Source: Salinivirgaceae bacterium
GTDB lineage: Bacteria; Bacteroidota; Bacteroidia; Bacteroidales; SZUA-534
Length of the DNA: 35,020 nucleotides
NCBI GenBank assembly: GCA_016342715.1
Contig: JAEINW010000025.1
Coordinates: forward strand, 1 to 35,020
Direction of reading: 5' to 3'
The translations under genes were made by a program, and so were the position numbers. Numbering within the stretch: position 1 is the stretch's first letter; each line of letters starts with the position of its first letter. Of this stretch, positions 141 through 28,039 are shown one piece after another. The notes beneath the pieces were generated by a model. The model ran no database searches. It had not been told where the DNA came from and worked only from the letters and a program-made list of their open reading frames with translations.

Positions 141-3100
141 TCAATTAATTTCTAAGGATTTTTTAAACTTTCGTGTTTCAATAAATTCAACGAGTCGCTG
201 TAAATAATTTTGCCACAAGGCAATGTACAAAACCAAACTCATAAACCATATTGCTAAAATATTAAACCAAAAAGTATCAATTTCAAAATTCCCAATATTC
301 TTTTTAGGAGCATAAAAATGAGCTCGCCCAACCTTTGATTTTGGGAATAAAAATATGGGCTCATAAAGTTGAATTAATTCATTACGAATGACTTTTACCC
401 GTTCAATCTCACGATTATTTAACACAAATTCATTCACTCGTTGATTAGAGTATTTTTGTTTCAATTTAAAAATATAATCCTTACCATTAGCTTCTTCAAG
501 TCCAATAACCTTACTGTCTTTTACATCCATTAATTTGGCAACATGTTTTGACACACTCGTTTTTAATAAATACAAATCGGCTCTAAGTTTTACTAGTCGG
601 TTCTCATCACATGTAATAAAATCTTTCTTTTTATTTTCCTCTCCAATTAAATCAATTCCAAACCTATCTTTTATCCGAATTAATTCATTATAAATCAATT
701 CCAAGTTTGTTGTTTTTTTTGCACTAAATTGAGAATCATCTATTTTTTTTATGGTTGTTCCTATAATTTGAATGAGACGTGGAATTTTATAATTCATGGT
801 AAACGAAGCTTCACTTATTTGTTGCTCCAAGTCAAAAAATACTTTTTGATATTCATTATCTTTAAACTGCTTAACCATCATAGCTTCGTAAGCCCAACGC
901 GAGGTCATAACATCACCAATTAGAGGAACATTTTCTTGCGAAGACAATGAGTTGTGCAACTTGTCGAATTTAACAATTACACCACTTAATAATATTTGAG
1001 GAACCAATACTAACGGAATAATAATATAAATAGTTACTGCTGATTTAAAAGCTGAGGATATATTAAGTCCAACCATATTTGCAAAGCAAGAGGCTGAAAA
1101 TAAGACAATCCAGAAACTTAGGTTCATTCCATTAATTTCCAAAACTGCATTGCCTATTAAAACAAAAAGCAAGGTTTGAATAGCCGACAAAACAAAAAGA
1201 AAAAAGATCTTTGAATTATAATAACTTATTTGACTTAAATTAAGAAATGCTTCACGTTTTAGAATTTTTTTATCTCGAAATATTTCTTCAGCACTAACAA
1301 TTAAGCCCACAAATAAAGCAACAATTATTGCCATAAAAATAAATGCAGGAATATTTTCATTATCAAAAAATATGTATTTATTTGGATTGCCTTCGACGCC
1401 AACCATATACTTTGTTAATATGGATAAAACAAATGCCAGTAAAGGCGTAACAAACAAACTAATTACCATATATTGGCTGTCGGCAATTTTTGCCAGCAAG
1501 TTTCTAATGCTAAAAATTCGAAATTGATTAAAAAGATTTGGCACCTTAAAACTATTTATTGGCAAATCAAGTTTTTCATTTTTTACCTCAGTTTTTTGAA
1601 GCTTCTTATTAAAATGATCATACCATTCTTCTGGAGTGATTTTTCGCTTTGTTAAAAATTCTCCATATTCGTCAATCTCTTTCAATTCAATGGTTTGCAG
1701 AATTTCTTCAGGGTTCAAATTTCCACAGGTTTTACAAATGCTATCTTCAGCATCTATCATTCCTGCAATTTCTTTAAAGTATGAAATGGCATCAATCGGA
1801 TTCCCAAAATAAATTGGATATCCTCGCTTATCGAGTAACAAAATATCATCGAATTGCTTAAATATATCGGCTGACGGCTGGTGAATATTAATTACAATAT
1901 ATTTACCACATAATGCCTGTTTTTTTAACAAATCAATTACACGTTCTGAGTCAGATGAAGAAAGACCTGAAGTTGGCTCATCGACAAACAAAATTGAAGG
2001 TTCACGTATTAACTCTAGGGCAATATTTAATCTTTTTCGCTGACCTCCACTAATAAACTTATTTAATGGATTACCTACCTTTAAATTCCGAATTTCAAAT
2101 AAATCTAATTCATTCAGCGTTTTATCAACCCTTTGAATTATTTCTGTTTCCGACAAATTTCCAAAACAAAGTTTAGCACTATAAAAAAGATTCTGATAAA
2201 CACTTAGTTCATCAATTAGCAAATCATCTTGAGGAATATAGCCTATTAAACCTTTTAATAAATTTTTGTTTTCATGAATTTCATAGCCATTAATTGAAAT
2301 GGAGCCTGAATTTGGCATCAAACTACCATTTAAAATATTAAGCAATGTCGATTTTCCAGTTCCACTTCCTCCCATTATTCCAAGCATTTTGCCAGACTCA
2401 CCCAGAAAGCTAAATTTATGAATACCATTTTTACTGTTAGGAAAATTAAATTTTATTGATTTTACTTGAAGTTGCACTTTTTGACTGTTTTGCAACTTTA
2501 ATAAACTACCTGTAATATTCGAATAATAAATAGGTTTAATTTCTTCACCACGAATAGATGCACCTTTATCTAAAATATAAATATGGTTTGAAAATATTGT
2601 TTTTCCTTGCAATTGCAGCTTATCGGTTCCGGTATATTTAAATAAAAAAGTATTCGTTATTGAAATATTATAAAATAATAAATCACCCTCTAATCCATTA
2701 TGCTGCAAGGTATTTATTTCCTTTATGCTAATGTATGGATTGTCATGAACCAACAACACCTTATGTTTATTTACTACCTTATATATACTGTTAAAAATAT
2801 AGTTATACAAGTCACTAAACTCCTTGTTATCAATTAAAAAAACATCACTAATTTTATGAATTGCCTCAATAGATGGATCGGAAGACAAGGTTGTACTTGA
2901 ACCAGAAAGCCAGTGTTTAATAAATTGCAGTAAATTTATTATTACAAAGTACTTTTGTTTTTGATGCAGTTGTTTGTTTATTTTTTTTCCAATATCAAGT
3001 AAATCAGCATTAAAATCAGGTTGTTTTTCATCTTGTATTAAATCATTATAATAGTTTTCAAAAACCTGGAGTTGCTCTGTAACAATTTTCGAACTAAAAT

Positions 3101-3215
3101 TCTTTTTTAAATACGATTCAACAAAACTTCGAGCAATTAACTTATCTGCTGTCTTATTACCATAAGCTAAGAGTGCATATAAATGAATCAATGCTTCAAC
3201 AACTATCTTATTCAT
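141..3215 (-). CDS. ABCG-like ABC transporter, fused ATPase and permease, with TerB-like N-terminus
   Basis: A single-chain half-transporter of 1024 residues. Residues 1-80 are helical and resemble TerB-like domains. Residues about 190-260 form a beta-rich FHA-like segment. The nucleotide-binding domain has Walker A GGSGTGKST (about 282-290), the signature SGGQRKR (about 387), Walker B ILFVDEPTSGL (about 406) and the switch His in INIHQPS (about 445). A CxxC pair (CKTC) follows. The membrane part shows five hydrophobic segments between about 580 and 750 and a sixth near 980-1002, leaving an unusually long loop of about 230 residues before the last helix. I chose the ATG at 3215. An in-frame ATG at 3284 adds 23 Phe/Leu-rich residues encoded by AT-rich upstream DNA and looks spurious. 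The gene is 354 bp after the signalling operon and probably has its own promoter. The substrate is unknown. Confidence 0.9.
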   Translation of the reverse strand: MNKIVVEALIHLYALLAYGNKTADKLIARSFVESYLKKNFSSKIVTEQLQVFENYYNDLIQDEKQPDFNADLLDIGKKINKQLHQKQKYFVIINLLQFIKHWLSGSSTTLSSDPSIEAIHKISDVFLIDNKEFSDLYNYIFNSIYKVVNKHKVLLVHDNPYISIKEINTLQHNGLEGDLLFYNISITNTFLFKYTGTDKLQLQGKTIFSNHIYILDKGASIRGEEIKPIYYSNITGSLLKLQNSQKVQLQVKSIKFNFPNSKNGIHKFSFLGESGKMLGIMGGSGTGKSTLLNILNGSLMPNSGSISINGYEIHENKNLLKGLIGYIPQDDLLIDELSVYQNLFYSAKLCFGNLSETEIIQRVDKTLNELDLFEIRNLKVGNPLNKFISGGQRKRLNIALELIREPSILFVDEPTSGLSSSDSERVIDLLKKQALCGKYIVINIHQPSADIFKQFDDILLLDKRGYPIYFGNPIDAISYFKEIAGMIDAEDSICKTCGNLNPEEILQTIELKEIDEYGEFLTKRKITPEEWYDHFNKKLQKTEVKNEKLDLPINSFKVPNLFNQFRIFSIRNLLAKIADSQYMVISLFVTPLLAFVLSILTKYMVGVEGNPNKYIFFDNENIPAFIFMAIIVALFVGLIVSAEEIFRDKKILKREAFLNLSQISYYNSKIFFLFVLSAIQTLLFVLIGNAVLEINGMNLSFWIVLFSASCFANMVGLNISSAFKSAVTIYIIIPLVLVPQILLSGVIVKFDKLHNSLSSQENVPLIGDVMTSRWAYEAMMVKQFKDNEYQKVFFDLEQQISEASFTMNYKIPRLIQIIGTTIKKIDDSQFSAKKTTNLELIYNELIRIKDRFGIDLIGEENKKKDFITCDENRLVKLRADLYLLKTSVSKHVAKLMDVKDSKVIGLEEANGKDYIFKLKQKYSNQRVNEFVLNNREIERVKVIRNELIQLYEPIFLFPKSKVGRAHFYAPKKNIGNFEIDTFWFNILAIWFMSLVLYIALWQNYLQRLVEFIETRKFKKSLEIN

Positions 3216-3569
3216 ATTAGTAATTTTTTTTTTGAATAGTAATAAACTAAACCATAAATTAAAAAACCATAAGTTTGATAACAAAAGAATGAAATTCGTT
3301 TTAAAACAAAAACTAATAATTTTATTTAAGAATATCGATTAACGAATAACGATTTTTGAAGTAAAAAAAACAAAAAACGTTATTTCAGAACAATGTAGAT
3401 TTCTTTTGATCTTCTCTATTCTTAAATAGTTAACTCCTCTCATGACCAAAGGGAGTAAACCTTGTTCTATATTCAAAAAACATTTACCGAAACTAAAGTA
3501 GCTGTAATTAAACCTGACTGCCATCAGGCAAGCTTACAGGGGTTCAAGCAAAACATAGAATAACGAAGG
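3216..3569. other. gene-free stretch between ABC transporter and signalling operon
   Basis: About 350 bp without a credible gene. A 61-codon frame on the minus strand (3339-3524) has no recognisable composition or context. The stretch should hold the promoter of the transporter, but no clear Bacteroidota -7 box (TAnnTTTG) was found. It contains a two-part imperfect hairpin at 3502-3539 and a motif TAACGAATAACGA near 3340, partly echoed by GAATAACGAAGG near 3558. Confidence 0.5.
3502..3539. repeat. two-part inverted repeat downstream of signalling operon
   Basis: The outer arms CTGTAA/TTACAG (3502-3507 and 3534-3539) and inner arms CCTGA/TCAGG (3513-3517 and 3524-3528) are nested with symmetrical 5-nt internal loops and a 6-nt apical loop. 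It lies about 30 bp after the last stop codon of the minus-strand signalling operon, so it could be a weak terminator or RNA-stabilising hairpin, or a degenerate intergenic repeat. No T-run follows on the minus strand. Confidence 0.4.
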
Positions 3570-4754
3570 CTAATATCTAATTCCCCAAACAGTAATGTCA
3601 TCTATTTGATCTTTTTCTCCTTGCCAATTTTCCAACTCATTTATTAGTATTTTATATTGTTCACTCATTGGCAATTCTTTAATAGAATCTACTTTTTCTC
3701 GAAACCTTTTTAACGAATATTTTTTATTTTTTTCAGCTCCAAACTGATCAAAAAAACCATCTGAAAACAAATAAACACAATCATTTTTATTAAAATCAAT
3801 TGTTTTTTGCGTGTAGCCACCAAAAGCAAACTGATATTCTCCTATTGACCAATGGTCACCAGCATACTGTTGAAGGTCATTGTTTGTGTACGCAAACATT
3901 TTTTGATTTGTTGAAGCAAACTGTAGCTTATTGGTTTCGGTATTTAAAACACACATAGTAATTTCCATTCCATCTTCAATTCCACCCGAACTTTCTTTAT
4001 GCAATGTTTTTACAAAAAAACTATGAATATGATTGAGAATGCTAGCTGGCTCCAATATATTATTATCATTAATTGCATCGTTAATTGCTGTAAAACCAAT
4101 CATACTCATAATAGCTCCTGGCACACCATGACCCGTACAATCTATTACTGAGAATATTTTATAATTTCCTATGGATTTGAACCAAAAAAAATCACCACTT
4201 ATTATTTGTTTTGGACGATAAATAATGAAAGATTCCGCAAAATTTTTTTTGATAAGCTCTTTCTCAGGAAGAATGTGATTTTGAATATGTTGAGCATAGT
4301 TCATGCTCTCCATAATTATATTATTTTTACGTTCCAACTCCACACTATATTTTTTAAGAATATCGCTTGCTCTCTTTAATTCAATTTGCGTTGAAATTCG
4401 TGCCCGCAATTCATTCAAATTAAATGGTTTCGAGATAAAATCAACAGCACCAACTTCAAAACCTTTTACGGTACTTTCAATATCGTCGCGAACGGTAACA
4501 AAAATTACTGGAATTTCCTTAGTTTCAGGATTCTTTTTCAATTCTAAACATACTTCGTAGCCATTTAAATTGGGCATTTCAACATCCAATAATATCATAT
4601 CGAAAATTTCCTTTTTAACCCAATTTAGAGCCTCTAAGCCATCAAGGGCAAATTCAACTTGAAAGTTTAATTTTTTCAAAAGCGTACCCAGCACCTGTAA
4701 ATTTGAAGGATTGTCATCAACCAATAATATTTTTGCTTTAGAATTAGAATCCAT
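3570..4754 (-). CDS. REC-PP2C (SpoIIE/RsbU-type) serine/threonine phosphatase
   Basis: A response regulator of 394 residues with an enzymatic output. The receiver domain covers residues 7-125, with the acidic pair in LLVDDNP, phosphoacceptor Asp57 (LLDVEMP) and a KP motif (ISKPF). A coiled linker (about 128-170) leads into a PP2C/SpoIIE phosphatase domain (about 185-394). Metal-binding acidic motifs are visible: SGDFFW, VIDCTGHGVPGA, LFSDGFFDQ and DDITVWG at the C-terminus. Enzymes of this class dephosphorylate anti-sigma-factor antagonists in partner-switching systems. No such antagonist or anti-sigma kinase is in the window, so the substrate is unknown. It is the last gene of the operon, 5 bp after its neighbour, with which it shares a clearly related receiver domain. 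Phosphorylation by one of the upstream kinases is a natural inference. Confidence 0.93.
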   Translation of the reverse strand: MDSNSKAKILLVDDNPSNLQVLGTLLKKLNFQVEFALDGLEALNWVKKEIFDMILLDVEMPNLNGYEVCLELKKNPETKEIPVIFVTVRDDIESTVKGFEVGAVDFISKPFNLNELRARISTQIELKRASDILKKYSVELERKNNIIMESMNYAQHIQNHILPEKELIKKNFAESFIIYRPKQIISGDFFWFKSIGNYKIFSVIDCTGHGVPGAIMSMIGFTAINDAINDNNILEPASILNHIHSFFVKTLHKESSGGIEDGMEITMCVLNTETNKLQFASTNQKMFAYTNNDLQQYAGDHWSIGEYQFAFGGYTQKTIDFNKNDCVYLFSDGFFDQFGAEKNKKYSLKRFREKVDSIKELPMSEQYKILINELENWQGEKDQIDDITVWGIRY

Positions 4755-4759
4755 AAAAA

Positions 4760-5917
4760 CTATTTGTTTAAATGAATTGTAAAAGAATTTCCTTCTACTA
4801 AATTTTTCAATTCTATCTTTCCATCATGAGCTTCAATAATTAATTTAACCAAATTATAATCTAATGCCACTGTATCGTATGATTGAGTTTCTTCATTTTT
4901 GACTTCAAAATTTTGGTTGATTATTTCGTCAGAAAAAGCTTCACCTTTATCGCTAATTGTAATTAATTGTTTTTCACCCAAATTATCACAGTCTATTTCA
5001 ATGGTAGATTCAGGTTCCGATCGTATCAATGAATTTTCAATAATATTTGAAAAAGCTTTTACTAACATTTCATGATCGCCAACTATTTGTGTGCTATCAT
5101 CAATTTGACTATTAATTCTCACTTTATGTTTTTTGATACTCCCAGTCAACTGAATAATGCACGATTCAATGATTGATGACAGTTTGAGACTTTCCTTTTT
5201 TAAATTTACTTTTTTTGTTTTGAGACTTGTTACCTGAAGTGCATAAGAGGAGAATTTTTCCAATTTATTAACTGAATCATCAAGCACACTCACTAAATTT
5301 ACCAAATCTTTAGAATCTACCTGATCTTTCAAAATATGCAAGGTCCCCAAAATACCATTTAAGGGTGTTCGCATCTCATTACTAATGATTGATAAAAAAT
5401 CGGTTTTTGCTTGATCTAAAACAGTTAACTCTTTATTTGCTGATTCAAGTTTGGTATTTGCTTCCTCTATTTCATGTGTTCTTTTTTTCACTTCATCTTC
5501 TAACCATTTATTTACCGATTCAAGTTTTTCGCGACTACTTTTTAATTCCAATTGAGTTTCAACTCGAACTAAAAGTTCGGCAGTGTTAAAAGGTTTGGTA
5601 ATATAATCTTGAGCTCCAATTTTAAAGCCATTTACAATACTTTCCGAATCGGTTTTTGCAGTTAGAAATATTATGGGCAAATTGATGTGCTTATTGTTTT
5701 CACGAATTTTCTGACAAACTTCATAACCATCCATCTCAGGCATCATAACATCTAACAAAACCAGATCAAAATCCTGCTTTTCAATCCATTCTAAAGCTTT
5801 AAAGCCATTTATTGCAAATTCGACTTTGTAGTTTTTAAGCTTCAATGTATTTCCTAAAACCTGCAAGTTTTTAGGAGTGTCATCAACTATTAGTATTGAC
5901 GATTTATTATTTTCCAT
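4760..5917 (-). CDS. REC fused to a degenerate histidine-kinase core
   Basis: 385 residues. The receiver domain (7-122) is intact, with phosphoacceptor Asp56 in LLDVMMP and ITKPF. A coiled coil (about 128-165) precedes a HisKA-like region whose H-box reads ISNEMRTPLNG: the phosphoacceptor His is Asn180 (codon AAT at 5378-5380 on the minus strand). The following HATPase-like region (about 270-385) keeps an N-box Asn (IIENSLIR) and an Asp in ISDKGEAF. In place of the glycine-rich G2 box (usually GTGLGL) it has YDTVALDYNL. By sequence it should neither autophosphorylate nor bind ATP normally, so it is best called a pseudokinase response regulator. It starts directly after the stop codon of the 1504-residue kinase and is followed 5 bp later by the REC-phosphatase, which suggests it works between the two. 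Confidence 0.9.
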   Translation of the reverse strand: MENNKSSILIVDDTPKNLQVLGNTLKLKNYKVEFAINGFKALEWIEKQDFDLVLLDVMMPEMDGYEVCQKIRENNKHINLPIIFLTAKTDSESIVNGFKIGAQDYITKPFNTAELLVRVETQLELKSSREKLESVNKWLEDEVKKRTHEIEEANTKLESANKELTVLDQAKTDFLSIISNEMRTPLNGILGTLHILKDQVDSKDLVNLVSVLDDSVNKLEKFSSYALQVTSLKTKKVNLKKESLKLSSIIESCIIQLTGSIKKHKVRINSQIDDSTQIVGDHEMLVKAFSNIIENSLIRSEPESTIEIDCDNLGEKQLITISDKGEAFSDEIINQNFEVKNEETQSYDTVALDYNLVKLIIEAHDGKIELKNLVEGNSFTIHLNK

Positions 5918-8900
5918 TTATAAGCCTCCTAATTTTGTTTTTATACTTTCTACTACTTGTTTGTATTGCTTAATATATTTTAAAAGGTTATAAATATCGA
6001 AACCCTCCACTGCTTCTTTTAATTTGTTGCCATAGTTAATCAAATCAATAGAACTGTATTTTTCGCCAAAGTCCTTTACTTTGATTGCAAAGGCTTCCAC
6101 TTCATCCATAGGCTGTTGTTCTTCAAAGTTTTTCCATTCATTAAATAGCACTTCATCTAAAATATTTATTAATTCGGCCGTTTGACTTTCGCTTAAATTT
6201 AAGTTAAACAGCTCAACATCATCTATTACCTCTTCTGGCTCACCTAGCATCTGATATTTTAAAAATTTAATCAGCTCTTTATATAAATCATTTATTTCAA
6301 ATGGTTTAACAACAAAACTATCAAATCCTTTTTCTTTTACAGCCTCCTGCTCTTTCTTCATAACTGCAGCTGTACTGGCTATTACAGGTATATCTTTTAA
6401 TTTTTCTGTTTGTCTTAAATTCTTAAGCAATTCAATACCATCCATAACTGGCATTTTTATATCAGAAATTATTAAATCAACGTGGTTTTCATTTGCCATT
6501 TTTAGTGCTATTTCACCATTTTCAGCTTCTAAAATATGTATTTGAGTTTCGCGTAAGATACCTTTTACATAATCTCTATTATAACCAACATCATCAGCTA
6601 CTAAAAGTGTCGCCTTTTCAAAATAAATTTTTTCAATGTCAATTTCTGGTTTACTAGTTTTATGCTCAAATTCACGAGACACAACAACATTAGGGATAAA
6701 TACGGTTACAGTAGTTCCTTTTTTGCTTTCCGATTCTACTGATATACTTCCTTTCATTAATTCAACCAGTTTTTTGGTTATAGAAAGCCCTAATCCAGTT
6801 CCACCATACTTCTTAACACTCTGTCCCTCTTGCTGACTAAACGATTCAAATAGTTTCTTCTGAAAACTTTCTGACATTCCAATTCCAGTATCCTCCACAT
6901 GAATGGATAAATCAATCATTTTTTCACTAGAATCACGACGCAAGTGATATTCGTATTCAACCTTTAGTTTTATATGACCTTCGTGTGTGAATTTTACTGC
7001 ATTACCCAATAAATTCACCAAAATTTGACGCAATCGAATTTCGTCAATAAACAATCCTTTAGGCAAATCTTGTTGAAGTTCTATTTTAAAATCGAGACTT
7101 GACTCGTTAATTTTATTTTCAAACAATACCCTAATTTCATCAAAAAACCCATCGGCATCTACAAATTCATATTGCATTTCGAACCTTCCTGCTTCAATTT
7201 TCGAAAGGTCAAGAATATCATTTATGAGTGATAACAAACTTTTTGAACTCGATCTGATAGACTCCAGATAACTTTTGCTTAAATTATCATTAACCATTTT
7301 TGAAAGCAAATCGGAAAAACCAATAATAGCGTTCATGGGAGTTCTAATTTCGTGGCTCATATTGGCTAAAAATTCACTTTTTGCTACATTGGCTGCTTCA
7401 GCTTCTTTCATAGCTTCCTCAATATTTTGATTTGCTACAACCAGTTCATCAGTTCGTTCCCTAACTCGTTCTTCTAAATCTTCGTTTAATTTTTTTATCT
7501 CAAGTTCAACACGTTTTAAATGTGTTATGTTTTTTGCAAAACACGAAACACCCATTATGGTTCCGTCTTCAAATAGTATGGGATTCAAAGAAAATTCAAT
7601 AAATTTCTGCTTTTTACCTTCGCCTACCTGCTCTTCAAAATTTACGGTTTTTCCTTGTAGTGATTCAGTATATCTCTGCTTCCAAAGTTTTCTTTCATCA
7701 GCATTTTTAATGGTTTCAATTGTATTTGACCCCTGTTCAAGAACTACTTTATTCTTTTTATAAAAATCTTTTATTTTATTTCTATTAATCTCAATAATTT
7801 GATAATTTTTATCAACCGACCAAATTATGTCTTGTGTATTTTCAATTAATGCCGATAGGTTTGCCCGGTTTTTAAGTAAGACTTTTTGAGTTTCTTTTTT
7901 CTGCGTAACATCTTCTTTTAAGCCAATATAATGAGTAATGTTAGCATTAGCATCTTTTAAAGGTGTTATATATACATCTTCCCAAAACAATTCCCCACTT
8001 TTCTTTTTATTATGTAATTCGCCATTCCAAATCTCCCCCTTACTTATGGTTGCCCACATATTTATATAAACCTCAGGTTTTTCCTCGCCCGATTTTAATA
8101 TTCTCGGATTTTTACCAATAACTTCCGAATAACTATAACCAGTTGCTTTTAGAAAAAAATCATTAACATACTCTATATCACCTTGCTTGTCGGTAATAAC
8201 AATGGATACGGGACTCTGCTCAACTACCTGCGATAACTTGCGAACCTTTTCATCTACTTTTATACGCTGAAGCGTTAAAGCAATTTGATTAACAATAAAC
8301 TCTAAGGACTCTAAATCTTCTTTTTTATAAACCCCTTCTTTCTTATAATCCTGCAAACAAATTAATCCTATTACTTTATTATTGCTTATTAGAGGTAATC
8401 CCAGCCATGATTTTGCAACTTTTCCAACTAAACCAATAACCCCTTCTTCATGTAAATTCCTGATGTCTTTTCCTGATAATATTAGAGAGGTATTATTTTT
8501 TATAACCAAATTGCTTATGGTATTTTTAATTGGAACTTTTGTAAAATTATCATGTTGGTCTTTCATATAAGGAACCTCCAGCGTTTCTTCATTTTCATCG
8601 TACAATGCAATGAAAAAATTCTCACTGGGCACAATTCTATTAATCTCAACCTGAATGCCTGCACATGCTTCTTCAAAACCAATTCCCTCATGAATTAGGT
8701 TACTAATGTTTATTATAATGCTACGAATAAGCTCTTCGCGTTTACGCTGGGTAATATTTTCAATAATGCAATTTATAACAGGTTTTCTGGTTCGTAAATC
8801 CTCAAACTCTGATGCGTTTATTGAAACATCAACCAAAGTTCCGTCTTTAGTTTTTATAACAAATTCTTTTTTTAATAATTTCCCTTTTATTAAAACAACT

Positions 8901-10432
8901 CGCAAATTATTTTTAAGCGATTCTATTTGGTCATCTATTATAAATTGTTGGAATCGTTTGCCAACCATTTCCTTAATGGGGTATCCAAACAATTTGGCGG
9001 CAATTTTATTACATTGTATAATAGTTCCGTATTCATCAATGGTTACAATTGCACTGGCAGCTAAATCGTAGGTGCTTTGATACATTTTAGCTGTTTTATT
9101 CAAGTTTTCCTCGGCAATACGCTTTTGAATAGCTACTGACGCTTGATGAGCAAAGGTTTCAAGCACTTCTTTATTATGTATTTTATCGTGATTTGGAACT
9201 AGTATAAATGCGCTTCCGTAAACCTCGTCTTTATAGGTAAATCCCATTCCATAAATGGTATCGGAGCTAAAAATTTCTTTAGCCTTATCCATTTTTTCTT
9301 CTGAAACGCCTTTCAGTAAAAGGTTTTCTAATCCGTATGGGAATTCATTCAAACTGGTTTTGTTGAAAATTTCAAATTTATTCCAATCAATACGGTACAT
9401 CACCTGAAATTTCTTCACTTCAAGCAAATTTATAAAATCATTATAATGATGGGTATTACCTAGTATGGTTTCTATTTTTGCTTTATCGGTTTTCTTTTCG
9501 ATGGAATAAACTATAATAATGCACTCTTTTAAGAATGCTTTCAAGCTTATGCCTATATACTCAAAAATATTATCATCGTCGCCTAGTTCCGAAAATTGAA
9601 TAGCGGCTTTTGACAAAAACTCTATATCTTTAAAATGGCTCACTTCCCTTTCACGAGCATTTACGGCTTCGGTAATATCTTCAATCCAACCTTCATAATA
9701 AATTACTTCTCCGTTATTATCCCTTATAGCTTTTGCCGATTCTCTGGTAAAAAATTCCGTACCATCTAACTTATAACTTGACGATTCATAACCATAAACT
9801 TCACCTTTCTCTTCAATACTTTTTTTGAATTGGAAGCGTTCGTTTTCTCCAATAAGATTCCCTTCAATATTTTCTATACTTTTAAGTTCGCTAATTGATG
9901 TTGCACCAAACATTTTAACTAATGCTGGATTCCCTAAGAGTATTTTACCACTGTGTGAAGAACGATAAATTCCTATAGTTGCGTTCTCATATAATTGTCT
10001 GAATTGTTTCTCGCTTTCGGTTAAGGCCGATTGAATTTCAATGAGTTTACTTTCAAGTTCAAGCTGTCTTAATATGTTATCAATGGTGGCAATTAATTTG
10101 TCGGTAAAATTTGTATCCTTTATCAAGTAGTCTCTGGCTCCCATTTTCATAACCTCAACGGCCACTTTTTCATCGCCATAGCCAGTCATAAAAATAAATG
10201 GAGTTTTCTTTTTTTCGTCGCTGAGCTTTTCAATTACATTCACACCATTCATATCGGTAAGTTTATAATCAAGAAGCATTAAATCAATGGTCGTGTTTTG
10301 ATTTATTTTTTCTAAAGCTTCCTTTCCACTAGATGCTGTTATCACATTAAACTTATCTTTAGATAGGCTTCGTTTAATTAAAAACTGCAAACTAATATCA
10401 TCTTCAATAAGTAGAATAGTTTTCTTATCCAT
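5918..10432 (-). CDS. hybrid histidine kinase REC-PAS-GAF-PAS-GAF-PAS-PAS-HisKA-HATPase-REC
   Basis: 1504 residues with no membrane segment, so a cytoplasmic sensor. Order: receiver (5-122, Asp55 in LLDYKLTD, TGYGD, IKD); PAS (about 140-260); GAF-like (about 270-460); PAS (about 460-575); GAF (about 580-735); PAS (about 745-865); PAS (about 875-990); coiled coil; HisKA with phosphoacceptor His1027 in MSHEIRTPMN; HATPase with N-box NLLGNAVKF, EDTGIGM and GGTGLGLS; second receiver with Asp1324 in ISDIKMP and VVKPF. The last 110 residues or so are helical, without a recognisable HPt histidine motif. ATP hydrolysis would phosphorylate His1027, then the C-terminal Asp. Gap to the upstream gene is 29 bp, and the downstream ATG abuts its stop codon, which suggests translational coupling. 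Confidence 0.93.
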   Translation of the reverse strand: MDKKTILLIEDDISLQFLIKRSLSKDKFNVITASSGKEALEKINQNTTIDLMLLDYKLTDMNGVNVIEKLSDEKKKTPFIFMTGYGDEKVAVEVMKMGARDYLIKDTNFTDKLIATIDNILRQLELESKLIEIQSALTESEKQFRQLYENATIGIYRSSHSGKILLGNPALVKMFGATSISELKSIENIEGNLIGENERFQFKKSIEEKGEVYGYESSSYKLDGTEFFTRESAKAIRDNNGEVIYYEGWIEDITEAVNAREREVSHFKDIEFLSKAAIQFSELGDDDNIFEYIGISLKAFLKECIIIVYSIEKKTDKAKIETILGNTHHYNDFINLLEVKKFQVMYRIDWNKFEIFNKTSLNEFPYGLENLLLKGVSEEKMDKAKEIFSSDTIYGMGFTYKDEVYGSAFILVPNHDKIHNKEVLETFAHQASVAIQKRIAEENLNKTAKMYQSTYDLAASAIVTIDEYGTIIQCNKIAAKLFGYPIKEMVGKRFQQFIIDDQIESLKNNLRVVLIKGKLLKKEFVIKTKDGTLVDVSINASEFEDLRTRKPVINCIIENITQRKREELIRSIIINISNLIHEGIGFEEACAGIQVEINRIVPSENFFIALYDENEETLEVPYMKDQHDNFTKVPIKNTISNLVIKNNTSLILSGKDIRNLHEEGVIGLVGKVAKSWLGLPLISNNKVIGLICLQDYKKEGVYKKEDLESLEFIVNQIALTLQRIKVDEKVRKLSQVVEQSPVSIVITDKQGDIEYVNDFFLKATGYSYSEVIGKNPRILKSGEEKPEVYINMWATISKGEIWNGELHNKKKSGELFWEDVYITPLKDANANITHYIGLKEDVTQKKETQKVLLKNRANLSALIENTQDIIWSVDKNYQIIEINRNKIKDFYKKNKVVLEQGSNTIETIKNADERKLWKQRYTESLQGKTVNFEEQVGEGKKQKFIEFSLNPILFEDGTIMGVSCFAKNITHLKRVELEIKKLNEDLEERVRERTDELVVANQNIEEAMKEAEAANVAKSEFLANMSHEIRTPMNAIIGFSDLLSKMVNDNLSKSYLESIRSSSKSLLSLINDILDLSKIEAGRFEMQYEFVDADGFFDEIRVLFENKINESSLDFKIELQQDLPKGLFIDEIRLRQILVNLLGNAVKFTHEGHIKLKVEYEYHLRRDSSEKMIDLSIHVEDTGIGMSESFQKKLFESFSQQEGQSVKKYGGTGLGLSITKKLVELMKGSISVESESKKGTTVTVFIPNVVVSREFEHKTSKPEIDIEKIYFEKATLLVADDVGYNRDYVKGILRETQIHILEAENGEIALKMANENHVDLIISDIKMPVMDGIELLKNLRQTEKLKDIPVIASTAAVMKKEQEAVKEKGFDSFVVKPFEINDLYKELIKFLKYQMLGEPEEVIDDVELFNLNLSESQTAELINILDEVLFNEWKNFEEQQPMDEVEAFAIKVKDFGEKYSSIDLINYGNKLKEAVEGFDIYNLLKYIKQYKQVVESIKTKLGGL

Positions 10433-15598: not shown

Positions 15599-16042
15599 TT
15601 ATTCAAGATTATATTTTTCATTTAACACCAACCAATAATTGCTAAGCTTTTCAATAGCTGTTTGAAAATAATTAAAATCAACAGGTTTCCTAACAAAACT
15701 ATTGGCTCCATTTATATAGCATTGTTTAATATCTTGTTCCATATTTGACGATGTAAATATGACCACAGGAAGATATTTTGTTGTTTCGTTCTTTCGAATT
15801 TCTTTCAGCACTTCAACTCCCGACTTTTTAGGCAGTTTCAAATCGAGCAATACCAAATCTGGCAAATCGTTTATGTCTCTATTTATATATTGTCCCTTAC
15901 ACATTAAAAAATCGAGAGCCTGTTCGCCATTATTAATAATATTAATATCACTTTCTATTTTTTTACTTTCCATCGAAAGTAAAACCAACTCTGCATCGTC
16001 GGGATTATCTTCAACTAAAAGAATTTTTTTCTTTTTTTTCAT
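15599..16042 (-). CDS. single-domain response regulator, Rcp1 type
   Basis: 147 residues, just one receiver domain. Visible are the acidic pair in LLVEDNPDDAEL, phosphoacceptor Asp67 in LLDLKLP, the Thr in VVIFTSSN and FVRKPVDF. The EDNPDDAEL start and an insert before the Asp strand are typical of Rcp1-like regulators that pair with phytochrome-type kinases. I chose the ATG at 16042. An in-frame ATG at 16120 would add 26 residues but would overlap the 3' end of the upstream kinase gene, and the receiver starts properly at 16042. It sits 13 bp after a kinase of the DLRAPL (phytochrome-like) class, its likely cognate partner, and its stop codon abuts the next hybrid kinase gene. With no output domain it probably acts as a diffusible phosphoryl shuttle. 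Confidence 0.92.
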   Translation of the reverse strand: MKKKKKILLVEDNPDDAELVLLSMESKKIESDINIINNGEQALDFLMCKGQYINRDINDLPDLVLLDLKLPKKSGVEVLKEIRKNETTKYLPVVIFTSSNMEQDIKQCYINGANSFVRKPVDFNYFQTAIEKLSNYWLVLNEKYNLE

Positions 16043-16055
16043 TATTTTATGCTTA

Positions 16056-18032
16056 TTAAATTGTAAAAAAGAAAGTGGCTCCTTTTCCAAGATCCGATTC
16101 GGCCCAAATTTTTCCTCCATGCCTATTAATTACCCGTTGAACTGTAGCCAAACCAATTCCGGTTCCATCAAATTCTTCATCAGTATGGAGTCTGCTAAAA
16201 GGAGCAAAAAGCTGATTTTTATAATTCATGTCAAATCCTACCCCATTATCTTTCACATAAATGCTTTCAGCATTATTAATTATTACAGCGCCAATTTCAA
16301 TAAATGGTTTGCTTACTTTTGACGAGAATTTAAATGCATTTGATATTAAATTTAGCAATAAAACTTTAATTAACTGCTTATCGCAAAAACACGTTAAATT
16401 ATTGTTCACTAAATATTTATGATTAATGTATTTTTTATCCTCAACCAAGTCGGTAATTATTTCAGAGGCAATTTTTGAAATATCAACTTTTTCAATTTCA
16501 ATATTAACTTTCGATATTCTTGATAATTTTAATAAATCATCAATTAAGCTGGCCATTTGTTGACTCGATACCTGAATACGATTTAAATAATGCTTAATTT
16601 TAGTATCTAAGGGTTCATCAACAGCATTAATAATTGCATTACTAAAGCCGTTTATTCTTGTTAAAGGAGCACGTAAATCGTGCGAAACAGAATATGCAAA
16701 TGCCTCCAACTCGTTATTTACAGCCTTCAGATTATTGTATGCTTTTGTTAATTGTAATCTAGTATCATTAACATCTTCAATCAGAAATGTCATAGCACCA
16801 TGCGACTTTTTTAATTTTAAATTCTGTTGCTCAAATTGTTTGGTGCGTTCCTCAACCAAATTTTCCAATTCTTTCTTATATTTTTCTAATTCTGTTGTAA
16901 GTTTTAATCTATCCGAAATGTTTCTAATGGCAGCTATATGTACCATTTTCCCGTTCAATTCAAAAAACCTACCTGTTATTTCAACTGGGAATACGCTTCC
17001 ATTTTTTCGTTTATGATACCTTAACGGAATATTAATAATGTTGTCTTTTATAATGGGTGTTTCTATAGTAATTTTTGCAGTTTGATCAGGTTCGGCAGAC
17101 AAATCAACATTCTTCATATTAAGAAGTTCTTGCTCTGAATAACCATATAATTCAGCTGCAGCAATATTTGTTTCTAAAATTTGTTTTGATTGGTTATCGA
17201 TTAAAAATAAAGCATCAGACTCTGCATAAAACAACTCTTTATATTTTTCCACATTAAGTTTCAGGTCTTCTTCGAGTTTATGTTTTTCTGTAATATCTGT
17301 TATCGATCCTACTATTTGTACTACCTTACCATTTTCTATTACTGGAGTTTCTCTAACTTCTACCCAAATTTTTCTTCCTGTTTTATGTTTTAATTCCATT
17401 TCATAGTTTCCCTGATGCTCACCGGTATCAAAAGCAATTTTTGATTTTTCAATCCCTATGATATTGATAGGATTATCTGTAACTAGTTTTGTTCTATCAA
17501 TCATTACTTCTTCAGCTGTAAACCCTGATAACTTTTCAACCTGAGGACTGATATATTTTAGTATTTGTTTTTCTCCAATTATATAAAAAACATTCGTGCT
17601 GTATTCAATAATACTATTTAATAGTTTTTGATTTTCTTTTAATTCATTTATAGTGTTTTTATGCCTCATAAAGGCTTCAATTCTTGCTATAAACTCCTCA
17701 CTCTTAACCACCTTATCAAGAAACCCATCGGCACCCAAATTAAAACCTTTTATTTTATCAAAAGATGCTGCTTGTTTTCTGGAATTTAAAATGACAAATG
17801 AATTAATTTCAGCTTTTTTCAACTCTGCAAGAACCGAAAACCCATCCCTATCGGGCATACGAGTATCTAATATTATTAATTGCGGTTGGTGCTTTTTTGC
17901 TAACTCAATACCATCGTTGCCATTCGTTGCTTTTATAACGGAGTAAGCATTAAGTGTAAGTGTGCTTTCATAAAATACCAAAACATCATAATCATCATCA
18001 ATTAATAATATATCATATTTCTGATCAGTCAT
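16056..18032 (-). CDS. sensor histidine kinase REC-PAS-PAS-HisKA-HATPase (first gene of operon)
   Basis: 658 residues, no membrane segment. The receiver (5-122) has IDDDYD and Asp56 in ILDTRMP. The conserved switch Thr/Ser is Asn83 (ILNSRKQ), and the usual KP loop reads LDKVV. PAS domains lie at about 128-248 and 252-370. A long coiled coil (about 372-440) with the VEERTKQFEQQN pattern leads to the HisKA domain with His451 in SHDLRAPLTRINGF, a phytochrome-like H-box. The HATPase has NLISNAFKF, KDNGVGFD and GTGIGLATV, and ends with GATFFFTI. It has no C-terminal receiver and is followed 13 bp later by the single-domain regulator. The 221-bp gap upstream presumably holds the operon promoter, although I could not identify a convincing -7/-33 pair. 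Confidence 0.92.
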   Translation of the reverse strand: MTDQKYDILLIDDDYDVLVFYESTLTLNAYSVIKATNGNDGIELAKKHQPQLIILDTRMPDRDGFSVLAELKKAEINSFVILNSRKQAASFDKIKGFNLGADGFLDKVVKSEEFIARIEAFMRHKNTINELKENQKLLNSIIEYSTNVFYIIGEKQILKYISPQVEKLSGFTAEEVMIDRTKLVTDNPINIIGIEKSKIAFDTGEHQGNYEMELKHKTGRKIWVEVRETPVIENGKVVQIVGSITDITEKHKLEEDLKLNVEKYKELFYAESDALFLIDNQSKQILETNIAAAELYGYSEQELLNMKNVDLSAEPDQTAKITIETPIIKDNIINIPLRYHKRKNGSVFPVEITGRFFELNGKMVHIAAIRNISDRLKLTTELEKYKKELENLVEERTKQFEQQNLKLKKSHGAMTFLIEDVNDTRLQLTKAYNNLKAVNNELEAFAYSVSHDLRAPLTRINGFSNAIINAVDEPLDTKIKHYLNRIQVSSQQMASLIDDLLKLSRISKVNIEIEKVDISKIASEIITDLVEDKKYINHKYLVNNNLTCFCDKQLIKVLLLNLISNAFKFSSKVSKPFIEIGAVIINNAESIYVKDNGVGFDMNYKNQLFAPFSRLHTDEEFDGTGIGLATVQRVINRHGGKIWAESDLGKGATFFFTI

Positions 18033-18253: not shown

Positions 18254-20392
18254 TTATTCTGATATATTATTCTTTAATAACTGCTCTAAATAAGCTACTT
18301 TATTGCGCAATTCTTTTATGCGAAATTCGCGCCCAACAAACAATTCATTGTATTTTTCTAATTCTGAATTTTGCTGCTTTAATTGTTTGTTTTTATCTTG
18401 TAAATCAGCCGTTCGTTTATCAATAGTTTCTTCTAGCTTTATTTTGTGATTTTCTAATTCAAGCTGAGCAATTGTTTGCTCTGTTATATCGTTAATATAT
18501 CCTTCTATATACTCAGCCACACCGTTTTTATTTCTAATTCCAATACCTTGTTCAAACACAAATCGTATTTCGCCAGTACTTTTTATTATACGATATTTTA
18601 TTGAGAATCTTTCATTCTTAACTAGTGCAATATTAATTTGTTCATTAACTCCAAGTCTATCTTCTGGGTGTATAATTTCAGCGTATGAAATTTTATTGTT
18701 TTGAATAATGTCGGAGGGATTATAACCTAAGATTGAGAATACCGAACCATTAATATATTCCATGTCCCATTTATTATTATTTTTGCATCTATATACAATA
18801 CCCGGCAAATTGTTTAACAAATTAGAGAGCTTTTGCTCATTTTGTTTTAATTTTATTTGTGTTTCAACCTGCATAGAAATGTCTTCAAAAATGGTAGCAA
18901 ACTGACCTTTTTTTGGTGAAAAACAATTAATAGAATACCAACGCTTTAAGCTTTCTGAATATTGATCGAATTTTATTTGTTCACCTGTTAATGCTACTTT
19001 ACCATATATTTCCATCCAATTGGCAGGATCCTCTTTAATATTAGGTAATACATCTGACACTTTTTTTCCAATAACATCTTTTTTAGAAAGCCCAGTATGC
19101 TTTTGAAAAGCATTATTTATCTCTAAAAAAATATAATCGACAACAACACTATCTTCATTTAATACTATTTCGTGTAAGGCAAATGCATTCAACATATTTT
19201 CGAAAAGAAAACGGTATTTTTTTTCACTAAATAATAGTGCATTTTCAATTACTTTTTTTTCAGTTATATCTATTGCAATTCCCTCAACAATAACCTCATC
19301 GTCTTTAACAACACAATTAATTGATCTGTCTAAAAAGTTATGCCAATTTCCTCTAGTATCTTGAATTCTGTATTCAACTTCGAACCCTTTTACGGGATCG
19401 AAGTTATGCATAATTTGCAAGGTGCTTTCAATGTCATCTTTATGAATTGCGTTGTGCCACATAAATGGGTCGTTTTCATAAAAACCATTTTCAAATCCAA
19501 GTATATCTTTTGTTCGTGTTGAACAAAACAACGCTCCTCTTTTTGAGCTATAAATATATGTAATATCAGGGCTTTGCTCAACGAACCTGCGATATTTTGC
19601 TTCGCTTTTGTGCAAGGCAATTCCCATATGTTTTTCCTCTGAAATGTTTCTGGCCGATCCAATTATTTCAAGTTGTTTCTCATTTTCATAAATAATTCGC
19701 TCATTAATTTCTAAGCTTATTAAACTACCATCCCTATGAATAATTTCAAGTTCACTTTTTATTGCAGCTCTATAATTATTCTTTTTAAACTCGTTTGCAC
19801 GCAAAATTGCATGCTCATTATTTGGATTGCTTGAAATTATCGTTTCCCATGTTTTTCCAATAAGCTCGTAGTCGTAATAACCACAAAGTTCAAAACATTG
19901 ATTGCTTACAAAAGTTAACACATTATTTAAATCACGTTTGAAAACAACCTCCGTTATACTTTCTAAGGTATTCCGATAATTATTTTTACTCCTTTCTAAT
20001 TCTTTTTGCGTAATCTTTAATTCCGTAATATCTCGCCATATGGTATAAAATGCAGTTCCATTAAAATCGGGAATTGAATTTAACGAAACATCCATCCATA
20101 TTTCTTCCCCTTTTGAATTAAGATGAACCCATTCAAACCTGTGGTATCCATCCTTGCCAGCAATACGAATTAAATCTTTAATTTTTTCAGAAGAATAATT
20201 TCCGTCAGGTTGCTGTTCAGGTGAAATATCACTTGGAGCTTTGCCCAACAACTGATCAATGGTATCAAATTTCAGTAACTTCAATGTAGCTTCATTACAA
20301 TATGTAAATACACCCTTATTTAAAATTAGCATCGGATCTAACGAAAGATCAAATAACTTGTCAGCAAATTTTTTATCGGGAAATTTTTCCAT
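18254..20392 (-). CDS. five-PAS protein with coiled-coil tail, no output domain
   Basis: 712 residues, soluble. Five PAS/PAC units follow one another at about 10-125, 132-252, 260-382, 385-505 and 522-640, several ending in the PAC signature (DITEL, NISEE, DITEK, DISMQ, DITEQ). The last 70 residues form a charged coiled coil with the motif ELFVGREFRIKEL, a type of segment often found between a PAS domain and a HisKA domain in hybrid kinases. Here the protein stops there, with a normal stop codon. No HisKA, HATPase, GGDEF or methyl-accepting region is present. It may be a signal-binding adaptor that dimerises through the tail with kinases of the downstream operon (221 bp away, same strand), or a kinase that lost its catalytic half. 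ATG at 20392 is the first plausible start. Confidence 0.9.
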   Translation of the reverse strand: MEKFPDKKFADKLFDLSLDPMLILNKGVFTYCNEATLKLLKFDTIDQLLGKAPSDISPEQQPDGNYSSEKIKDLIRIAGKDGYHRFEWVHLNSKGEEIWMDVSLNSIPDFNGTAFYTIWRDITELKITQKELERSKNNYRNTLESITEVVFKRDLNNVLTFVSNQCFELCGYYDYELIGKTWETIISSNPNNEHAILRANEFKKNNYRAAIKSELEIIHRDGSLISLEINERIIYENEKQLEIIGSARNISEEKHMGIALHKSEAKYRRFVEQSPDITYIYSSKRGALFCSTRTKDILGFENGFYENDPFMWHNAIHKDDIESTLQIMHNFDPVKGFEVEYRIQDTRGNWHNFLDRSINCVVKDDEVIVEGIAIDITEKKVIENALLFSEKKYRFLFENMLNAFALHEIVLNEDSVVVDYIFLEINNAFQKHTGLSKKDVIGKKVSDVLPNIKEDPANWMEIYGKVALTGEQIKFDQYSESLKRWYSINCFSPKKGQFATIFEDISMQVETQIKLKQNEQKLSNLLNNLPGIVYRCKNNNKWDMEYINGSVFSILGYNPSDIIQNNKISYAEIIHPEDRLGVNEQINIALVKNERFSIKYRIIKSTGEIRFVFEQGIGIRNKNGVAEYIEGYINDITEQTIAQLELENHKIKLEETIDKRTADLQDKNKQLKQQNSELEKYNELFVGREFRIKELRNKVAYLEQLLKNNISE

Positions 20393-20600: not shown

Positions 20601-21038
20601 ATGAAGTATTTACTTATTACATTTTTTGCACTTTTAAGTTTTGCGGCACATAGTCAATGTGTAAATTTCCACAAAGAAAATTGCAATCTACCCTCTACCT
20701 GGGATTATGAATTTGACTCACAATCATTGAGTGTTCCTCTTTTTTCGGGACAATCATTCAGGTTCAAAGCTGTTTTTTATGAAGGCAAAGATTATTTTAT
20801 TGGTTTTTGTAAGGAAGCTGAACTTGGAGAAATTAAATTTCGCTTTTTAAGTGAAGACATTGTTATTGACAATACTTATTCAGAAAGCATGAATGATAAT
20901 TTGGAATTTATTGAGTTTTCAAATACAGCAACTAGAATTGCAATTATTGAAATAAAAGTTGGTAAGACTAAGGTGATTAATACCAACGAAAGAAAATGTT
21001 TAGGTGTAATTATTGGCACTAAAAACACAGAGAATTAA
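20601..21038 (+). CDS. small secreted four-cysteine protein (paralogue A)
   Basis: 145 residues with a clear signal peptide (hydrophobic residues 3-16, cleavage expected after AAHSQ or just before it). The mature part has four Cys (20, 28, 70, 133) and motifs shared with the protein at 22034-22510: SQS..LSGQ-type segment, FKAVF.EGKDY, a Cys after the following strand, E..LG.I.FR and a C-terminal CLGVII. The predicted fold is beta-rich. I do not know an assigned function for this family; similar short secreted proteins of unknown role are common in Bacteroidota. It is 31 bp upstream of the lipoprotein gene on the same strand and probably co-transcribed with it. Confidence 0.85.
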   Translation: MKYLLITFFALLSFAAHSQCVNFHKENCNLPSTWDYEFDSQSLSVPLFSGQSFRFKAVFYEGKDYFIGFCKEAELGEIKFRFLSEDIVIDNTYSESMNDNLEFIEFSNTATRIAIIEIKVGKTKVINTNERKCLGVIIGTKNTEN

Positions 21039-21069
21039 AACCCGAATATTAAATTTAAATCAAATAATT

Positions 21070-21963
21070 ATGAATGCTTCTTATTCAAAAATCGCAATAG
21101 TTTTAATTACAACATTGTTTTCGTTTTATTCTTGTAATAATGATAAGAAAAAAGAAAGCGTAACTGACAATACTATTATATTGGAATTAGATGAAGCTAA
21201 TTTTACCGATAATTTAACATATTATAGGTTTCCTTCGCCCGAAGAAATTTTTGAGTATATAAAATTAACAGGTATTAATTATAGCGACGAGCTAGTAAAT
21301 CCGGCCTATTACCATGACAAATATACAGACACTTATTCCCAAACAATTAACATGGGTATTTACATTTCTGATTTGGCCTACATCACTATGTTCAATCAAC
21401 AAGAAAAATCTCTGGATTATTTTGAAGCTATCCATTATTTAAGTGAAGCCATCAGAATTTCATCGGCTTTTGAAGATCCTTTATTAAATAGAATAAGTGA
21501 TAATATTGATAATGTAGACTCATTGGTTATTATTGCAAGTGATGCGTATCAAGACATTGTTGATTATCTGGTTGACAATGACATGGAAAATAAATTGTCG
21601 GTACTTTCAATAAGTGCATTTATCGAAAGTCTTTACATTACACTTTCGTACATTGATGTTTATGACGCCAATAGCGAAATGATTAAACGCTTAGTTGATC
21701 AAAAGTACGCATTGAGCAATTTATACGAATACTCAATGCAGTATGAAAAAGATAAAAATGTAAAAAAAGCTATTGTCCCAATTTCTGCCTTAAAAGAAAT
21801 ATTTGATAACCTACAACCAGAAAAACAAACCTCAACAAAAGTTGAAAACAAAGGGAATAAATTGATATTATCGGGGGGAACAAAATATGTTATTTCAGAA
21901 GAAGAGTTTACAAAATTAAAACAAATTATAAACGACGCCAGAGCTGAATTTATTAAGTTTTAA
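21070..21963 (+). CDS. lipoprotein of unknown function
   Basis: 297 residues from the ATG at 21070. An earlier in-frame ATG (21013) overlaps the preceding gene and would bury the signal peptide. Residues 8-21 are hydrophobic and end at Cys22 (FSFYSC), a signal peptidase II site of the looser Bacteroidota type, followed by polar NNDKKK. The rest is mainly helical, with the features TYYRFPSPEEIFEYI, NMGIYISDLAYI and DNVDSLVIIASDAYQ, which I associate with an uncharacterised Bacteroidota lipoprotein family. No enzymatic motif is visible. It lies between two paralogous secreted cysteine proteins and is followed by a strong hairpin, so with paralogue A it probably forms one transcription unit. Likely anchored in the periplasm or at the outer membrane. 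Confidence 0.85.
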   Translation: MNASYSKIAIVLITTLFSFYSCNNDKKKESVTDNTIILELDEANFTDNLTYYRFPSPEEIFEYIKLTGINYSDELVNPAYYHDKYTDTYSQTINMGIYISDLAYITMFNQQEKSLDYFEAIHYLSEAIRISSAFEDPLLNRISDNIDNVDSLVIIASDAYQDIVDYLVDNDMENKLSVLSISAFIESLYITLSYIDVYDANSEMIKRLVDQKYALSNLYEYSMQYEKDKNVKKAIVPISALKEIFDNLQPEKQTSTKVENKGNKLILSGGTKYVISEEEFTKLKQIINDARAEFIKF

Positions 21964-21971
21964 ATAAAAAA

Positions 21972-22008
21972 TATAAAGGGAATTTACTCGAAGAAGATTC
22001 CCTTTATA
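21972..22008. terminator. strong hairpin, terminator-like
   Basis: A perfect 12-bp inverted repeat (21972-21983 TATAAAGGGAAT with 21997-22008) has a 13-nt loop and starts 9 bp after the lipoprotein stop codon. It lacks a long T-run on the plus strand, so it could be a terminator, an RNA 3'-end stabiliser or an attenuation point ahead of the next gene. Confidence 0.6.
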
Positions 22009-22033
22009 AAGTATAAATTGAAAAGCTATTAAT

Positions 22034-22510
22034 ATGAAATACATATATATACTATTAACATTACTAATCACTTTCCCTGTTGCAAGTCATTCGCAAAAAA
22101 AATGCAACAAATATCTTGAAAAAAAATGTGATGGTTATGGCGATCCATTTCGATTCAGTGGGCAATCAAGAAACGCACTTTTTGAATTGGGACAAAAATC
22201 AGAGTTTAAATTAGCTGTATTTGGTGGGTTTGAATACAGAGTTGCTATTTGTGCTGAGAAAAATTTAAAAGGTATTTACTTTCGAATAAGAGAAGACAAT
22301 ACCAATAAAAATATACTTTATGATAGTTCGTCGGAAATAGAAGATTTTTTGGAAAAAATGTTTTTTGTTGAAGAGTCGAAAAATTTAATTATTGAAGTTA
22401 TAGTTCCAGAAGGAGATGAACCCAAAGAAGAACAAGATTATAGTGATAGATATGGGTGCATGGGTGTTTTAATTGAATATTATAGAAAAAATGATAGTGG
22501 ATTTAATTAA
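22034..22510 (+). CDS. small secreted four-cysteine protein (paralogue B)
   Basis: 158 residues with a signal peptide (hydrophobic 3-17, cleavage near ASHSQ). The four Cys (24, 32, 73, 142) have nearly the same spacing as in paralogue A (Cys-7-Cys-40/41-Cys-62/68-Cys). Motifs are also shared: FSGQSRNALFELGQ, FKLAVFGGFEYRV.IC, L.GIYFRI and C.GVLIEY. Two disulfides are likely in the mature protein. Function unknown. It begins 26 bp after the hairpin that follows the lipoprotein gene and ends 3 bp from the stop codon of the convergent PKD gene. Confidence 0.85.
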   Translation: MKYIYILLTLLITFPVASHSQKKCNKYLEKKCDGYGDPFRFSGQSRNALFELGQKSEFKLAVFGGFEYRVAICAEKNLKGIYFRIREDNTNKNILYDSSSEIEDFLEKMFFVEESKNLIIEVIVPEGDEPKEEQDYSDRYGCMGVLIEYYRKNDSGFN

Positions 22511-26887: not shown

Positions 26888-26888
26888 C

Positions 26889-27929: not shown

Positions 27930-28039
27930 TTTGCTACATATTTGACTAAAGTTACATTAATTATTATACAAATTCAACAGGGTGTTTTTATTTTTTGTAA
28001 ATTATGTGAAATTTAAAGTAACCCCTTAAAGCAAGTATT

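Follow-up and report, generated by a model that had tools for sequence, protein, structure and literature searches.

Kinase folds that signal without catalysis

Understanding of natural histidine pseudokinases in bacteria is limited to a few, with DivL as the main structural case. Phosphotransferases of the Spo0B and ChpT type are built from a DHp domain and a degenerate ATPase-like domain; they require the phospho-acceptor His and have no receiver (REC) domain. DivL of Caulobacter is a kinase fold that signals without catalysis (PMC4211667), and so does an evolved ChrS pseudokinase (PMC9491836). LvrB of Leptospira is a Rec-controlled histidine kinase, which is switched by phosphorylation of its REC domain at D56 (PMC13269768). 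In the LvrB study, the linkers of such proteins favour multiples of seven, fitting a coiled coil that is formed on REC phosphorylation (PMC13269768). In the papers searched, and with the terms tried, we found nothing on histidine pseudokinases with receivers in Bacteroidetes.

We analyzed a stretch of 35,020 nucleotides from a Salinivirgaceae bacterium (contig JAEINW010000025.1), hereafter called the window. It encodes a 385-aa REC-DHp-CA protein (4760..5917, minus strand) which, as judged from its sequence, combines a pseudokinase with a receiver whose phosphorylation residues are kept. The best full-length structural match of its model is LvrB (PDB 8vc9); a second structural search, with VIA-align, listed receiver domains only and so bears on the REC part. 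The two proteins share the REC-DHp-CA order and a linker in heptad register, and REC phosphorylation, the input of LvrB, is also the predicted input of the window protein, in which D12, D13, D56, T86 and K108 are present. However, LvrB is active and has the acceptor His (H161), whereas the His and the ATP-binding G2 box are lost from the window protein. DivL (PDB 4q20; PMC4211667) resembles the window protein in the lack of the phospho-acceptor His, which is Tyr in DivL, and, on our reading, in a non-kinase function and in the use of DHp as a docking surface. DivL differs in that PAS domains precede its DHp-CA part, it lacks a receiver, and its N, G1, F and G2 boxes are kept, whereas the window protein carries a REC and its CA domain is degenerate. 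The features that define DivL are thus not found here: REC takes the place of PAS, G2 is lost, and the His site holds Asn rather than Tyr (or Ala). We file the protein as a predicted pseudokinase variant of the Rec-HK architecture and not as a DivL family member, because it lacks catalytic features that define a histidine kinase.

RetS (PDB 6dk7/6dk8) and ChrS are similar in another respect, as their kinase-like regions are proposed to work through another kinase. ChrS arose as a truncation in laboratory evolution and still has its His (PMC9491836), and pairing of the window pseudokinase with another kinase is hypothetical. The window protein is like Spo0B and ChpT in having a DHp with a degenerate ATPase-like domain, and differs from them in that the His is absent and REC is present. 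In the family to which it belongs, the catalytic His was lost repeatedly while active relatives were retained, and some genomes have both kinds, so that the role of a kinase fold that has given up catalysis can be asked about. The family also connects a pseudokinase with a set of ABC transporter, lipoprotein and secreted protein for which the present analysis found no function, and gives a concrete genetic entry point.

Domain make-up and catalytic residues of the window protein

Pfam matched the 385-aa protein with Response_reg at residues 8-119 (116 bits), HisKA at 170-221 (37.5 bits) and HATPase_c at 280-384 (37.3 bits). The gene has a strong ribosome-binding site (AGGAGG). An AF2 model, for which the alignment input was the window protein and related loci with order-level relatives left out, reached a pLDDT of 88.8 overall; the low-confidence exception was residues 339-347, the ATP-lid region. 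The REC domain (residues 8-119; 5561..5896, minus strand, like all parts of this gene) keeps D12, D13, D56, T86 and K108, which lie in columns that are invariant or nearly so in the family. The codon of Asp56, the predicted phosphorylation site, is at 5750..5752, and Asp is retained at this position in 83/83 assessable family members. The spacing from Lys108 to position 180 is 72 residues. The seven-residue register of this spacing is common to 62/69 His-bearing and 9/15 His-less family members, and 5 of the other 6 His-less ones have a length of 54, which is that of the clade with a different REC.

The DHp domain covers residues 170-235 (5213..5410), which are helices in the model, and its H-box is IISNEMRTPLNG. 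At the phospho-acceptor position the DNA reads AAT (5378..5380), for Asn180, and the phosphorylatable His of HisKA-type kinases is absent. Four residues after the His site (H+4), where the phosphatase function of HisKA proteins calls for Thr or Asn, T184 is present both here and in the sister-genus orthologue described below. The degenerate CA domain extends over residues 240-385 (4763..5200). Its N-box Asn (N295) is present, its G1 box (DxGxG) has D323 and G325 with the second Gly replaced by A327, and its G2 box is lost, as residues 349-353 (4859..4873) are TVALD in place of the GxGxG of relatives. We aligned the protein with 28 relatives, of which nearly all are from other taxa. Conservation in this alignment is at least 90% for each of His180, Asn295, Gly351 and Gly353, and the window protein has N180, N295, A351 and D353 at these four columns. 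The preliminary description of this DNA had reported the replacement of His by Asn and the loss of the G2 box in a protein that retains the N-box Asn and the signals of the kinase fold, and the reading frame, the alignment, the Pfam matches and the confident model bear out each of these points. The translations also confirm that the four neighbouring kinases have SHE or SHD in their H-boxes. The genome has a very large two-component repertoire with 82 HisKA matches, and in the 70 others of these that were read, His was present in 70/70.

Neighbouring genes and the ABC transporter-lipoprotein module

The pseudokinase gene follows, with no gap, the gene for a 1504-aa hybrid histidine kinase (5918..10432, minus strand), in which Pfam domains are found and the boxes are intact (H-box MSHEIRTPMN, G2 GGTGLGL). 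This kinase is likely to be the phosphate source for the REC domain of the pseudokinase. Five bases downstream of the pseudokinase gene is the gene for a 394-aa REC-SpoIIE (PP2C-type) phosphatase (3570..4754, minus strand; Pfam), whose catalytic motifs GDFFW, DCTGHG, SDGF and DDIT are intact. The placement between an intact hybrid kinase and a REC-phosphatase, as described earlier, is therefore correct, and the genes form a tight operon. Next to the phosphatase gene is that of an ABC transporter of ~1047 aa (141..3284, minus strand), which has ABC_tran and ABC2_membrane domains in Pfam and homologues of 40-58% identity; homologues of it adjoin His-less relatives of the pseudokinase. Directly downstream of His-less members there is a ~1000-aa homologue of this ABC protein, followed by homologues of a 316-aa lipoprotein and of small predicted secreted proteins. 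The window has another layout, in which the lipoprotein and secreted-protein genes are 17 kb off on the opposite strand and the REC-SpoIIE gene is inserted between the pseudokinase and ABC genes. These distant genes encode a small predicted secreted protein of 145 aa (20601..21038, plus strand), found by phmmer matches to module loci; a lipoprotein-like protein of 316 aa as called (21013..21963, plus strand), found by profile A2 and by the loci; and a second small predicted secreted protein of 158 aa (22034..22510, plus strand), again by phmmer matches. The secreted-lipoprotein-secreted order is that of loci L176 and L210. All gene calls in the window and in the loci are mechanical ORFs.

The ABC-lipoprotein-small secreted protein set (141-3284 and 20601-22510 in the window) is conserved in L176, L210, L211, L215, L217, L225 and L239. 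The ABC family occurs in 160/393 genomes of the order, which is probably Bacteroidales as a named relative (Plebeiobacterium) indicates, usually in more than one copy, and many copies are without such a regulator. The lipoprotein is rare outside the order in our sample. The lipoprotein and the secreted proteins matched no Pfam or NCBIfam family, and a search of the lipoprotein profile against PDB sequences gave no convincing match. A single-sequence AF2 model of the lipoprotein was set aside (pLDDT 44). PADLOC gave weak generic REC and ABC matches only, with no sign of a defence system. SpoIIE genes were also observed adjacent or close to other ABC/lipoprotein sets, in L296, L308 and L317 (735-759 aa) and in L306 (REC-SpoIIE). 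This suggests a wider link between SpoIIE proteins and the transporter.

Orthologues and selection

In 99 related genomes the only close orthologue is in a sister genus (L031/L188) and is 58-60% identical. The gene order around it is that of the window, with the hybrid kinase upstream and the REC-SpoIIE and ABC transporter genes downstream. Its H-box is ISNEIRTPLNG; the N-box Asn, the G1 Asp and the G1 Gly are also lost, and Pfam HATPase_c has no match in it. The next relatives, L176 and L210 of a neighbouring family, retain His, and in L407, a close relative that shares its genus with L210, the acceptor site is Ser. A paralogue elsewhere in the genome of the window (L002/L170; 43% identity) keeps the His and has no adjoining ABC transporter. 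The preliminary description would have taken orthologues with His and an intact G2 box as a sign of recent decay and as evidence against its proposal. Such evidence is present in part, in that L176 and L210 have His, yet the sister genus shares the Asn, and the loss in this lineage is therefore younger than the family but common to two genera.

REC is 85% identical between the window protein and the sister-genus orthologue, and CA only 24%, with a dN/dS of ~0.5. Within His-less pairs the identity of DHp is 71-91%. For L233/L259, a His-less pair with measurable dS, dN/dS is 0.16 overall and 0.10 for helix-DHp; dS is near saturation for most His-less pairs in these estimates. The substitution patterns indicate that REC and DHp are under purifying selection and that the CA domain is relaxed. 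The pseudokinase gene is thus conserved and not decaying.

Loss of the acceptor His next to the transporter module

When 393 genomes of the order were searched with a profile, ~80 REC-DHp-CA proteins were obtained. We scored a member as linked when its gene is directly beside the ~1000-aa ABC transporter, its ~300-aa lipoprotein or both. In this first set, the His was lost in 13/18 linked and in 0/54 unlinked members. The families around three of the genomes were searched afterwards. All seven newly sampled loci with an ABC gene directly downstream are His-less (L389, L395, L396, L397, L401, L402 and L405), and so is L392, which is lipoprotein-linked and from a genome already sampled. Five newly sampled loci without an ABC gene in the stretch read have His (L398, L399, L400, L404 and L406, the last of which ends at a contig edge). 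Three genomes (G804, G811 and G812) each have both a linked copy that lacks the His and an unlinked copy that retains it. Among the 98 REC-HK rows of the final set, all from the same order, the His is lost in 22/27 linked members versus 0/58 unlinked members. The replacing residues in linked members are N, Q, R, K, E, D and T. Five linked members keep the His (L176, L210, L197, L228 and L204a), and three His-less rows are too near contig ends to be scored for linkage: L177 (Tyr), L244 (Asn) and L407 (Ser), where a SpoIIE gene adjoins as in the window. Apart from these three contig-end rows, loss of the His is confined to module-adjacent family members. Among the His-less relatives, L235 and L241 have the lipoprotein and secreted-protein genes and no ABC gene directly downstream.

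Fisher's exact test gave P = 6e-16 for His loss against linkage, a value that treats the rows as independent although they are related. On a quick tree of DHp-CA at least five changes between His and other residues are needed, one of them for L177, and the 22 His-less linked rows appear to go back to about four loss events. Most linked rows are in one weakly supported group (SH-aLRT 87), and a minimum of three changes in linkage is needed. In a test on independent pairs, the tree held too few pairs to reach significance. The association rests on few independent events, because one lineage dominates, the minimum number of changes is five and the paired test is short of pairs.

A second feature goes together with linkage. 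A GTLHxLK motif just after the H-box is common to linked members and is in no unlinked member; in the window protein it contains the segment TLHILK (residues 192-197; 5327..5344, minus strand). The equivalent of His194 is present in 19/27 linked versus 0/58 unlinked members and that of Thr192 in 15/27 versus 0/58, in a comparison that used a tree built without the motif columns. GTLHxLK lies in a part of DHp helix 1 that belongs to the receiver-docking surface. The frequent loss of the His beside the transporter gene, against its retention elsewhere, suggests that the dead kinase is retained as a docking part in transporter control.

Probable domain exchange and proteins with dead or degenerate outputs

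The His-less clade L217, L233, L239, L244 and L259 groups with proteins of another REC type when full-length sequences are used, and with the window lineage when DHp-CA alone is used (support 89, not starred). Because the two groupings differ, we infer that REC was probably exchanged once in this clade, which held on to the dead kinase and to its place beside the ABC gene. In L282, which adjoins another copy of the ABC family, Asp occupies the acceptor site.

Some proteins with a different output domain were also observed. The protein of L265 (12963-14111) has a REC with a degenerate SpoIIE-like domain (E 4e-14 to a local SpoIIE profile), whose catalytic motifs are gone, and that of L261 (12146-13258) has a REC with a still more divergent domain, whose assignment and status as a dead output are tentative. 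Both genes are placed divergently beside other copies of the same ABC family. In L180, L220, L221, L228 and L240, the His is kept and N-box or G1 residues are lost, and only L228 is linked to the transporter. These five are possibly REC-bound phosphotransferases, and the Spo0B/ChpT model fits L180, L220, L221 and L240, with His kept and CA degraded, better than it fits the window protein. The latter has no His and hence cannot act as a phosphotransferase.

Proposed mechanism and alternative explanations

The preliminary description regarded the protein as a likely regulatory scaffold that could bind kinase dimers or the phosphatase in a phosphorylation-dependent way. A pseudokinase with an intact receiver is indeed what we found, but its partner need not be a kinase or a phosphatase. 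The partner is unsupported as stated because the REC-SpoIIE gene is missing beside most His-less relatives. Their recurrent neighbours are the ~1000-aa ABC transporter, the lipoprotein and the small predicted secreted protein, which had not been connected with the pseudokinase before. On about even chances, we propose that the REC-controlled pseudokinase is a phosphorylation-switched binding protein for the ABC-lipoprotein module, where both the partner and the direction of control are inferred. Asp56 would be phosphorylated by a kinase that acts upstream, for which the adjacent hybrid kinase or its relay is the most likely candidate. Phosphorylation would alter the REC dimer and, with it, the helix that links REC to DHp and the DHp bundle, as in LvrB. 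The changed DHp surface around Asn180 and TLHxLK would then bind or release a partner instead of freeing CA to phosphorylate a His. This partner could be a component of the ABC-lipoprotein-secreted protein module or its regulator, and in the window lineage possibly the REC-SpoIIE phosphatase. Phosphorylation of Asp56 would thereby set the activity or the assembly of the module. A broader proposal is more speculative, and we hold it only tentatively: a class of Bacteroidota response regulators may exert direct control over the ABC-lipoprotein-secreted protein machine through a dead enzyme domain whose docking is switched by phosphorylation. In most of them this domain would be a pseudo-histidine-kinase and in some a degenerate SpoIIE-like phosphatase, and catalysis would have been lost repeatedly once the link to the transporter existed.

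Several other explanations have to be considered. The pseudokinase might tune the adjacent hybrid kinase in the manner of RetS or ChrS, its dead DHp pairing or docking with that kinase, and the ABC link would then be mere operon membership. The tight operon with the hybrid kinase, the kinase gene directly upstream of many family members, the presence of RetS among the closest folds and the precedent of the ChrS pseudokinase (PMC9491836) all agree with this. However, kinase adjacency fails to explain which members lost the His, because it is equally common in His-bearing unlinked members, and the His-less L217, L233 and L239 have no kinase gene directly upstream; such tuning therefore seems unlikely to us. 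Transporter association could also reflect ancestry, if one linked lineage tolerated loss of the His and inherited the DHp motif while its function is unrelated to the transporter. This would fit a tree in which linked members are mostly one group (SH-aLRT 87) and as few as three changes in linkage suffice. Inside that group, however, the His was lost several times and is still present in others, the DHp-CA part and the linkage persisted through one probable REC exchange, and the same ABC family is adjoined by other receiver proteins whose outputs are dead or degenerate, clearly in L265 and tentatively in L261. We consider ancestry an improbable explanation.

About equally improbable, or slightly more so, is a phosphatase role, in which the protein would act on a phosphorylated receiver (its own, that of the hybrid kinase or that of REC-SpoIIE) via Thr184, with no kinase activity. 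Phosphatase activity of HisKA proteins needs the residue equivalent to T184, and not the acidic residue beside the His (PMC3510030), and T184 is kept in the pseudokinase and its orthologue. On the other hand, the H+4 residue is replaced by E, V, S, G or P in six His-less members (L225, L204b, L233, L235, L241 and L244), and the CA domain, which normally supports the phosphatase function, is degenerate in the pseudokinase. Finally, the gene could be decaying and functionless, as might be read from the relaxed CA domain of the window lineage. We find this hardly credible, since the reading frame is open, the ribosome-binding site strong and the operon tight, two genera share the gene with a well conserved REC, and other His-less pairs are under purifying selection.

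Other features of the window

Beside the kinase cluster there is a 712-aa PAS-domain protein (18254-20392, minus strand), in which we found no kinase domain. The region 22514-30100, which follows the second secreted-protein gene, encodes a PKD-repeat protein with a type IX secretion C-terminal signal (CHU_C), a 346-aa protein that matched no family and a PorE/CHU_0125-like protein of the TPR-PD40-OmpA type, and is a probable surface or gliding-type gene set. A single-domain receiver ORF (15599-16120) overlaps the upstream kinase ORF (16056-18032, minus strand) by ~65 bases, and the true start of the receiver ORF is probably an internal Met.
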